A stretch of DNA of 61,556 bases from assembly GCA_028874795.1 (NCBI GenBank), contig JAPPHT010000027.1, positions 1 to 61,556 on the forward strand. Reading direction: 5' to 3'. The position numbers and the translations under genes are program-made. Below the pieces are notes generated by a model. It did no database searches and was not told where the DNA came from. It was given only the letters and a program-made list of their open reading frames with translations. This document shows positions 8,338 through 11,244 of this stretch, one piece after another. Numbering within the stretch: position 1 is the stretch's first letter; each line of letters opens with the position of its first letter. The stretch comes from Chloroflexota bacterium. Lineage in GTDB: Bacteria > Chloroflexota > Dehalococcoidia > Lucifugimonadales > Australimonadaceae.

Positions 8338-9648
8338 ATGACTGGTCTGAGTTCGATTGTCCGTGTTTCCGTCTGTGTGTTGGCTCTGGCGTTGCTGGCG
8401 GTACTGGTCGGGTGCAGCGGAGAGGAGGCAACGCCCACGGACGAGCCGGCCGCGATTCCCGTGGCCACAGCGACCGACACGCCTGCAGAATCTGTCGCGC
8501 AGCCTGCTGAACCCGCCGGCGACGCAAGGCCCACGCCCATGATGCCGGAATTCACTGCGACCGGGAGCACGGGCGGAGGGCTTGGCGACACCGCGCCTGA
8601 GTTCACGGGCATTTCCGAGTGGCTCAACAGCGAGCCACTGATGATGGCGGAGCTGCGCGGGGACGTTGTTCTCATCGACTTCTGGACGTACACCTGCGTC
8701 AACTGCATCCGCACGATGCCCTACCTGCGCGACTGGAACGAGAAGTACGCGGACCGCGGGCTCACGATGATCGGCGTGCACACGCCGGAGTTCGACTTCG
8801 AGAAGATCACGGAGAACGTGGTGGCGGCCAACGATGAGCTGGGAGTCGTCTGGCCCGTGGCCCAGGACAACGATTTCGGCACGTGGCGCTCCTACAACAA
8901 CCGCTTCTGGCCGGCCAAGTACCTGATAGACGCGGAGGGGGTCGTCCGGTACACGCACTTCGGCGAGGGCGCCTACGACGAGACTGAGCACCACATCCGC
9001 GCGCTGCTGGAGGAGGCGGGTAACGACGTGTCGGACATCGCTGCAAGCGCGGACACGGGGCCGACCTTCGATCAAAGGGCGCGGGGCACGTCTGTCGAGA
9101 CCCAGCAGACGCGGGAGATATACGGAGGGTGGGACCGCAACTCCTTCCAGCCGTACATCGCGCACCTCGAGTACTACGAGGCGGGGCCTCTCGTGACGCA
9201 GTTCTACCTAGACCCCGGGGAGCACTTCAATCATGCCCTCTTCCTGCACGGCTCGTGGCACACCGACTTCGAGGCGATTTCCCACGGGCGTGAGACGGAG
9301 GACTACGAGGACTACATAGCGCTCCGCTTCTTCGCCCGCACGGTCAACATCGTTCTCGACCTGGAGGAGGGCGTGGAGCCTTTCGAAGTGGAGGTCACCA
9401 TCGCCGAGAGCCTGCCGCCGGGCGCCGAGCCCGGAGCAGAACTCGCCTACCGCCCACTGACCCCGGACGAAGCGGGAGAGCACATCGTCATCGAGGATGG
9501 ACGCAGCTACTTCGTGGTGGACGAGCCTGACCTGTACAACGTCGTCTCGTTGCCGGAGTTCGGCGACGCGGAGCTGAAGTTCTCATCGAACTCGGCCCAC
9601 TTTGCGCTCTTCGCGCTCACGTTCGGCTCCTACGACGAGGTCTTCTAG
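8338..9648 (+). CDS. TlpA-like thioredoxin-fold lipoprotein with C-terminal extension
   Basis: The 436-aa product is predicted to be exported and lipid-anchored (hydrophobic core, then LVGC with the acylated Cys at 26). A Thr/Pro/Ala-rich linker follows. A TlpA/DipZ-type thioredoxin domain occupies about residues 85-240, with redox motif CVNC (Cys120, Cys123) in FWTYTCVNCIRT. The last 170 residues form a separate domain, similar to the extra C-terminal domain of DipZ-like proteins. The ATG at 8338 has GGAGG upstream; the longer frame would read through the promoter. It is the first of three consecutive thioredoxin-fold genes, so reduction or exchange of envelope disulfides is likely. Confidence 0.85.
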   Translation: MTGLSSIVRVSVCVLALALLAVLVGCSGEEATPTDEPAAIPVATATDTPAESVAQPAEPAGDARPTPMMPEFTATGSTGGGLGDTAPEFTGISEWLNSEPLMMAELRGDVVLIDFWTYTCVNCIRTMPYLRDWNEKYADRGLTMIGVHTPEFDFEKITENVVAANDELGVVWPVAQDNDFGTWRSYNNRFWPAKYLIDAEGVVRYTHFGEGAYDETEHHIRALLEEAGNDVSDIAASADTGPTFDQRARGTSVETQQTREIYGGWDRNSFQPYIAHLEYYEAGPLVTQFYLDPGEHFNHALFLHGSWHTDFEAISHGRETEDYEDYIALRFFARTVNIVLDLEEGVEPFEVEVTIAESLPPGAEPGAELAYRPLTPDEAGEHIVIEDGRSYFVVDEPDLYNVVSLPEFGDAELKFSSNSAHFALFALTFGSYDEVF

Positions 9649-9656
9649 GCATCAGG

Positions 9657-10334
9657 ATGCGCAACCTGCGCACGTATACCGTCATCGCCGGCACGCTCGC
9701 CGCAGCGTGCGTCGCCGTGGCGTGCTCCCAGGAGTCCGCTCCCGGCGCCACGCCAACGCCCACACCGGCCCCGACCTCGACGCCTGCGCCCACCCCCACG
9801 CCCACCCCCGCGTTGCCGGGGTTCGAGGCTTCCGGCCAGACCGGGGGCAAGGTGGGGGACACCGCCTCCGAGTTCACGGGCATCACGCAGTGGCTGAACA
9901 GCGAGGCGCTGACGATGGAGGAGATGCGAGGGAAGGTGGTCCTGGTGGACTTCTGGACGTATATCTGAATCAACTGCAGACGTACCGTGCCGTACTTGAA
10001 GGACTGGAACGAGAAATACGCCGGAGACGGCTTCACGATCGTCGGGGTACACACGCCGGAGTTCGAGTTCGATAAGCTCACCGAGAATGTGATAGTGGGA
10101 GCGGCGGAACTGGGCGTCGTCTGGCCCATCGCCCAGGACAACGACCGACGCACGTGGCGCTCCTACAACAACCGCTTCTGGCCCGCGAAGTACCTGGTAG
10201 ACGCGAGCGGCGTCATCCGCTTCACCCACTTCGGGGAGGGCGCCTACCAGCAGACCGAGCACCACATCCGCGCGCTGATGGCAGAGGCAGGCCACGACGT
10301 GCCGGACGTTCCGGTCGGCAGGCAGGAGTCTTAG
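9657..10334 (+). CDS. Candidate selenoprotein: TlpA-like lipoprotein with in-frame TGA in the redox motif
   Basis: Read through one TGA (9966-9968), this frame gives a 225-residue lipoprotein. It has a signal with lipobox VAVAC (Cys23), a Thr-Pro linker and a thioredoxin domain that closely matches the upstream gene. The TGA is residue 104 and aligns exactly with the first Cys of the neighbour's CVNC motif, giving a UINC motif (Cys107). The remaining 121 codons are intact and conserved. Starting 13 nt after the TGA, GTAC (9982-9985), a 6-base loop CGTGCC and GTAC (9992-9995) can form a small hairpin. Its loop G lies 19 nt after the TGA, inside the known range for bacterial SECIS elements. The alternative is a single nonsense mutation (TGC to TGA). 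No selenocysteine machinery lies in this window. Confidence 0.65.
9969..9998 (+). promoter_or_regulatory. Possible bacterial SECIS-like hairpin
   Basis: The stem GTAC/GTAC (9982-9985 with 9992-9995) encloses CGTGCC, with a G in the second loop position. Weaker lower pairs extend the stem with bulges. The codons here (AGA, CGT, GTG, TTG) differ from those used in the paralogous gene, as if the RNA shape were selected. This was folded by eye only. Confidence 0.4.
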
Positions 10335-10335
10335 G

Positions 10336-11244
10336 ATGCAGGGATCGCGTTTCACCGCGACCACTCTTGGCGCATTGCTCGCCTCTCTGATCGTTGCCGC
10401 GTGTGCTGCGGAGCCTACCCCAACCCCTACTCCTGCTCCCACGCCCACGCCAGGGATACAGGAGTGGGAGTCGATCCTCGGGACGACGGTGCTGCGGACG
10501 GGAACGCAGCGCGTCGCGTTCCTGCTGGCCTCCGGCACCGATCTCGTTCGCGTCCCGGAGGCTACCGTCACCACGACGTCCCTGGACGGCGGCGCCGAAG
10601 GCGAGACAGCGACGGCACAGTTCCACGAATGGCCCTTTGGCACGCGCGGCTCGTACGTCACGCAGATGACCTTTCCGCAGGCGGGCGCGTGGCGACTCGA
10701 CATCGAGGGTGAGGGCGGGGTAGCCACACTGGACGTGTTGGTGGACGAGACCTCCATCGTGAGGGACGTTGGGGAACTCGGCGTGTTCAGCAACACCAAG
10801 ACGCTGCAGGGCACGGGCGGAGACCTCGGCAGCATCACGTCCCACTACCGGCCCGACCCTGCCCTGTACGAGATAAGTGTTGCGGAGGCGCTCTTCAACC
10901 GTAAGCCAACGGTGGTGGTATTCGCTTCGCCGGCGTTCTGCACGACCCCCACGTGCGGCCCACAGGTCGAGACCGTGACCGAGTTGCGGGAGGCGTACCC
11001 GGGTGCTGCGGACTACATCCACGTAGAGGTCTACGACAACCCGCACGAGATACAGGGCGACCTCACGAAGGGCGTGCTCTCGCCGGTGCTGGAGGAGTGG
11101 GGCATAGACCAGGTCCCGCACTACCAGAACGAGTCGTGGACGTTCATCCTTGGCGCGGACGCGCGCATCGCCGAGCGCTTCGAGGGCTACGCGACCTTCA
11201 CGGAACTGGAAGAAGCGCTGCGGGAAGTGACGGCTGGCGCCTAG
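10336..11244 (+). CDS. Thioredoxin-like lipoprotein with a CX4C motif
   Basis: The 302-aa product has a signal peptide ending in the lipobox VAAC (Cys23) and a Thr-Pro linker at about 27-40. A beta-rich middle region follows at about 50-140. The C-terminal thioredoxin-like domain is at about 180-300, recognised from [10 protein letters not shown] and the later [15 protein letters not shown]. The redox pair is Cys202 and Cys207 (CTTPTC), spaced CX4C instead of CxxC. AGGAG lies before the ATG, which begins one base after the previous stop. The tight spacing places it in the same operon as the two TlpA-like genes. Confidence 0.8.

Follow-up and report, generated by a model that had tools for sequence, protein, structure and literature searches.

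The U Gene and Its Neighbourhood

The window (the whole stretch of DNA that was analysed, 61,556 nucleotides in length) contains a tandem pair of genes for thioredoxin-fold proteins, followed by the gene for a further lipoprotein (Table 1). The second gene of the pair, denoted here the U gene and its product the U protein, has an in-frame TGA where the first encodes a Cys. Frame translation showed that this TGA is the sole internal stop in the U gene and that the 121 codons downstream of it are open, as the original prediction had stated. When the two genes were aligned, their active sites read FWTYI*INC and FWTYTCVNC, respectively, and codon 104 of the U gene was matched by a TGC codon in the paralogue, bearing out the claim that the TGA stands at the position of the first redox Cys. 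The signal peptide of the U protein is followed by a Thr/Pro-rich linker, and a domain search showed that the Thioredoxin_10 domain of the paralogue is absent from the U copy. Elsewhere in the window, further frames interrupted by a TGA got through no more than a rough open-frame filter and resemble shadow frames.

Table 1. Positions of the tandem gene pair, the adjoining lipoprotein gene and the elements within the U gene.
Feature	Position	Strand	Basis
Tandem Cys paralogue, CVNC active site, extra C-terminal Thioredoxin_10 domain	8338–9648	+	Alignment, domain search
U gene, DipZ-type thioredoxin lipoprotein, 225 residues, stop codon TAG	9657–10334	+	Sequence, orthologues, fold
Predicted signal peptide, lipobox-like VAC at residues 21–23	9657–9725	+	Sequence; orthologues alike
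In-frame TGA, codon 104, first residue of the U-I-N-C active site	9966–9968	+	Same codon in 5/5 orthologues
21 codons with frozen synonymous sites, presumed SECIS region	9969–10031	+	Synonymous constraint
Small hairpin GUAC-CGUGCC-GUAC, −2.8 kcal/mol	9982–9995	+	Sequence identical in 5/5 orthologues
Neighbouring lipoprotein, C-x4-C motif, kept beside the gene pair	10336–11244	+	Sequence, gene order

The gene order pheT, Cys paralogue, U copy, lipoprotein, rubrerythrin-like gene, glyA is identical in the window and in genomes G003, G004 and G005. In G001, the most divergent of the genus members that were compared, the order is pheT, Cys gene, lipoprotein, and there is only the Cys gene and no U copy. 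Since G001 has selA (SelA was found) but no U copy, the U gene is dispensable there. The C-x4-C motif of the neighbouring lipoprotein (AFCTTPTC) is conserved in the genus, and the protein matched nothing in Pfam or NCBIfam and nothing significantly in the PDB. It is possibly a redox partner of the U protein.

Relationship to DipZ

By sequence, the U protein is closest to the C-terminal domain of Mycobacterium tuberculosis DipZ (E = 1e-47), and Pfam matches were to AhpC-TSA, Redoxin and Thioredoxin_8. A fold model, built with Cys at residue 104, had a mean pLDDT of 81.9, reaching about 90 or higher across the greater part of the domain, and the best PDB match of the predicted fold was again DipZ, at 40–47% identity. 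U104 and C107 align with the CxxC of DipZ, and across 22 aligned homologues position 104 is always U or C and position 107 always C. The U protein thus agrees with the DipZ C-terminal domain in sequence, in fold and in the motif W-x-Y-x-C/U-I-N-C. The agreement is limited to this domain: DipZ has a DsbD-like membrane part, which is lacking from the U protein, whose 225 residues comprise only a signal peptide and the thioredoxin domain. The C-terminal domain of DipZ (Rv2874; PDB 2hyx, 5cyy) is thioredoxin-like with a CINC active site, as is the U protein, except that DipZ has Cys where the U protein has a TGA and putative selenocysteine (Sec), and that the U copy is a short lipoprotein without a further C-terminal domain. 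The original prediction had called the product a TlpA-like lipoprotein. A lipoprotein reading frame is indeed present, but the score against the TlpA model of NCBIfam (30.5 bits) was below the cut-off of 230, as were those for ResA (66.9 against 170) and DsbE (30.1 against 123), and a likeness to the DipZ C-terminal domain fits better.

A GTG at position 9987 opens a frame of 115 residues, and the locus might therefore encode two proteins, an upstream fragment of 103 residues and a separate product starting at this GTG. There is, however, no ribosome-binding stretch upstream of the GTG; the invariant I-N-C, including the second redox Cys, is kept between the TGA and the GTG; and, judging from the fold model, the split would cut the thioredoxin fold after the active-site strand. 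Two separate products are therefore exceedingly improbable.

Conservation and Selection in the Genus

Orthologues of the U gene were found in four of the five other genomes of the genus, with 77–81% identity. Each of the five orthologues, including the one in the window, contains a single internal stop, and in every case it is a TGA at the same codon; the random stops or frameshifts that would have spoken for gene decay are missing. In other homologues the column is occupied by Cys, so that this functional site is kept as either TGA or Cys. TGC and TGA are only one base apart, and a sequencing or assembly error in place of a true TGC had to be considered. Matching public records include “SAR202 cluster bacterium bin16” as well as further assemblies of Chloroflexi and Dehalococcoidia, so the TGA is not an error confined to a single assembly. 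The same TGA occurs in separate assemblies of other species, which refutes an error for the genus as a whole, and the codons that follow differ from those of the paralogue in a conserved way. This divergence had been pointed out previously and was confirmed (AGA CGT ACC GTG CCG TAC TTG in the U gene, ATC CGC ACG ATG CCC TAC CTG in the paralogue). We assign a negligible probability to an error.

Selection acts on both halves of the gene. The mean dN/dS over the five orthologues was 0.17 in the part of the domain before the TGA and 0.17–0.19 after it, indicating that the downstream half is translated. In addition, the synonymous difference, averaged over codons with an invariant amino acid in the five orthologues, was 0.047 within the 21-codon stretch that follows the TGA compared to 0.255 elsewhere (permutation p = 0.001), and dS was 0.09 in this stretch compared to 0.40 further down. 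Both genes could be compared in four genomes, and there the synonymous difference over the same 21 codons was 0.056 for the U gene and 0.267 for the Cys paralogue (one-sided p = 0.018). Such synonymous constraint is what an RNA signal embedded in the reading frame would produce.

These data bear on whether a nonsense mutation has cut the tandem copy short at residue 103 and left a pseudogene. An intact Cys paralogue adjoins it, so the copy could be redundant, and it is missing from one member of the genus. However, the TGA is common to five species whose orthologues differ at about 17–23% of their residues and contain no other stop or frameshift, the dN/dS after the TGA is low, the synonymous sites just downstream are frozen, and the genome has the sel genes (see below). 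The selection data refute a pseudogene in practice, and we regard it as highly improbable. Recoding rather than nonsense mutation, as originally proposed, is supported by the sel genes, the conserved TGA and the synonymous constraint; each of the originally suggested checks that was carried out favoured it.

Selenocysteine Machinery in the Source Genome

A search of the window's assembly for selA, selB, selC and selD, suggested with the original prediction, found all four in the one genome. In this assembly (G000, in which the window lies on contig C3), SelA was detected with an E-value of 1.6e-126, SelB with 5.5e-102, which was over the cut-off, and SelD with 1.4e-116, and there is a tRNA-Sec with the anticodon UCA (TCA in the DNA). 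The selD gene of this genome (L047) carries a TGA of its own, likewise in frame, at the UxxK site where Sec is usual (CAGUAGK), and a good hairpin lies downstream of that TGA. Scanned against Rfam with gathering thresholds, the window yielded nothing but a tRNA.

A Putative RNA Signal Downstream of the TGA

The small hairpin described in the original prediction exists and is identical in the five orthologues, but at only −2.8 kcal/mol it is weak evidence by itself. Its loop G lies at +22, counted from the T of the TGA. In the SECIS of E. coli fdhF, the loop bears G23 and U24, and the loop GU of the window hairpin is at about the same distance. An alternative hairpin in the U gene, at +16 to +46, has a folding energy of −6.8 kcal/mol. 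Between +10 and +51, the 12 DipZ-type U genes folded no better than their codon-shuffled versions (mean z = +0.18), whereas 37 U genes of a second family, the thioredoxin-NHL proteins described below, folded better than theirs (mean z = −1.59). In 32 of these 37, a CAGUUG hairpin of the form CUUCCGC-AGUU-GCGGAAG spans +22 to +39 and has few broken pairs, and a similar apical hairpin is present in two DipZ-type genes (L128 and L053). A SECIS, of putative fold, is likely to follow the TGA of the U gene, and may be of an unusual, weak form.

TGA at the Same Column in Wider Families

The pattern W-T-Y-x-TGA-[IV]-N-C was found at 34 loci in the GTDB collection, distributed over Chloroflexota, Egibacteraceae, Euzebyaceae, one member of the Thermoleophilia and one unidentified bacterium. 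The loci fall into two families, DipZ-type and thioredoxin-NHL. The thioredoxin-NHL (NHLRC2-like) proteins, L075–L138 (e.g., L101, L138 and L085), have the TGA in the same column of a related thioredoxin-like domain, with C-U-INC or A-U-INC at the active site (WTYC-U-INC, WTYA-U-INC). They differ from the U protein in their length of about 500 residues, their NHL repeats, the clear hairpin after the TGA and an identity to it of roughly 28–39%. We consider them a second candidate selenoprotein family, found in Dehalococcoidia and Actinomycetota. The thioredoxin-NHL copy of the source genome itself has Cys rather than TGA. A DipZ-like homologue, L052 (G058:C91:7178-7798), has the active-site Cys and one TAG further down, and may be a pseudogene or an error.

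In the tree, the U copies of the genus formed one clade (100/100) beside the Cys paralogues of the genus (a set of ten, 95/80), while the U copies of other families were placed elsewhere. When the DipZ and NHL families are taken together, a minimum of four changes between Cys and Sec is required by this tree, whose bootstrap had not fully settled.

A looser TGA pattern was present in 49 of the 393 genomes of the class, compared to a single genome for a reversed control pattern. Of these 49 genomes, 48 had selA, compared to 207 of the 344 without the pattern (Fisher p = 3e-9, uncorrected for kinship and therefore overstated, since the genomes are related). One draft genome (G409, 91% complete) had two TGA-pattern genes and no SelA that could be found, probably due to an assembly gap.

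Reading of the TGA by a near-cognate tRNA, with insertion of Trp, Cys or another amino acid instead of Sec, would also give a full-length protein; the support for full-length translation holds regardless of the residue, and folding of the DipZ-type genes gave no stable SECIS hairpin. On the other hand, the TGA is confined to the position of the first redox Cys, where it has turned up repeatedly in different lineages, selA accompanies the pattern as above, and the source genome has SelB and a dedicated tRNA-Sec with the UCA anticodon. Near-cognate readthrough is accordingly very unlikely.

Discussion

The segment 9657–10334 very probably encodes one exported DipZ-type thioredoxin lipoprotein with a Sec-Ile-Asn-Cys active site. 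In the mechanism that we propose, the TGA would be decoded by SelB with Sec-tRNA(Sec), under the direction of an RNA signal located downstream in the coding sequence. The U protein, with its predicted lipid anchor, would then serve, together with the Cys paralogue, as a thiol-disulfide (selenol) oxidoreductase outside the cytoplasmic membrane, with Sec as the presumed attacking residue in extracytoplasmic thiol-disulfide exchange. The gene pair probably originated by tandem duplication in the genus or at its base, followed by a change from Cys to Sec in one copy.

That UxxC selenoproteins of thioredoxin fold are a known kind, as the original prediction assumed, is well documented (PMC1088965, PMC1794560, PMC2398784, PMC13188914). 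The types described include Trx, Trx-like 1 (COG0526), Prx-like 3/Redoxin (PF08534) and thiol:disulfide interchange protein (PMC2398784, PMC13188914); like the U protein, they have Sec in place of the first Cys of CxxC, but none of them is called DipZ-type in those reports. The table of a 2026 review has the broad entries Redoxin family (PF08534, UxxC) and thiol-disulfide isomerase-like, and its text names neither DipZ nor NHL (PMC13188914). Our literature search returned no report of a DipZ-type or thioredoxin-NHL selenoprotein, and nothing that joined selenoproteins with SAR202 or with NHL repeats in bacteria; the sole match for DipZ and selenocysteine was a glycosidase paper. Scans of NCBIfam found no dedicated model for this type of protein. 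The “Redoxin family protein” HEU0032618.1 (PMC13188914) may be of this type, and an earlier report under such a broad name is possible. On balance, we lean slightly towards the view that these are two unreported selenoprotein families of Dehalococcoidia, DipZ-type and thioredoxin-NHL (the latter also in some Actinomycetota), with several separate changes between Cys and Sec at one column, a tandem Cys/Sec pair kept in the genus, and perhaps an unusually weak form of SECIS.

Annotation pipelines would split such genes in two, and 49 of the 393 sampled genomes of the class carry one at the active-site pattern. Because its hairpin is weak, the U gene would be useful for testing what SelB needs in this phylum. 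The locus also illustrates the origin and retention of a tandem pair of Cys and Sec genes, and would give the SAR202-type Dehalococcoidia, which are uncultured environmental bacteria, an additional redox protein that depends on selenium.
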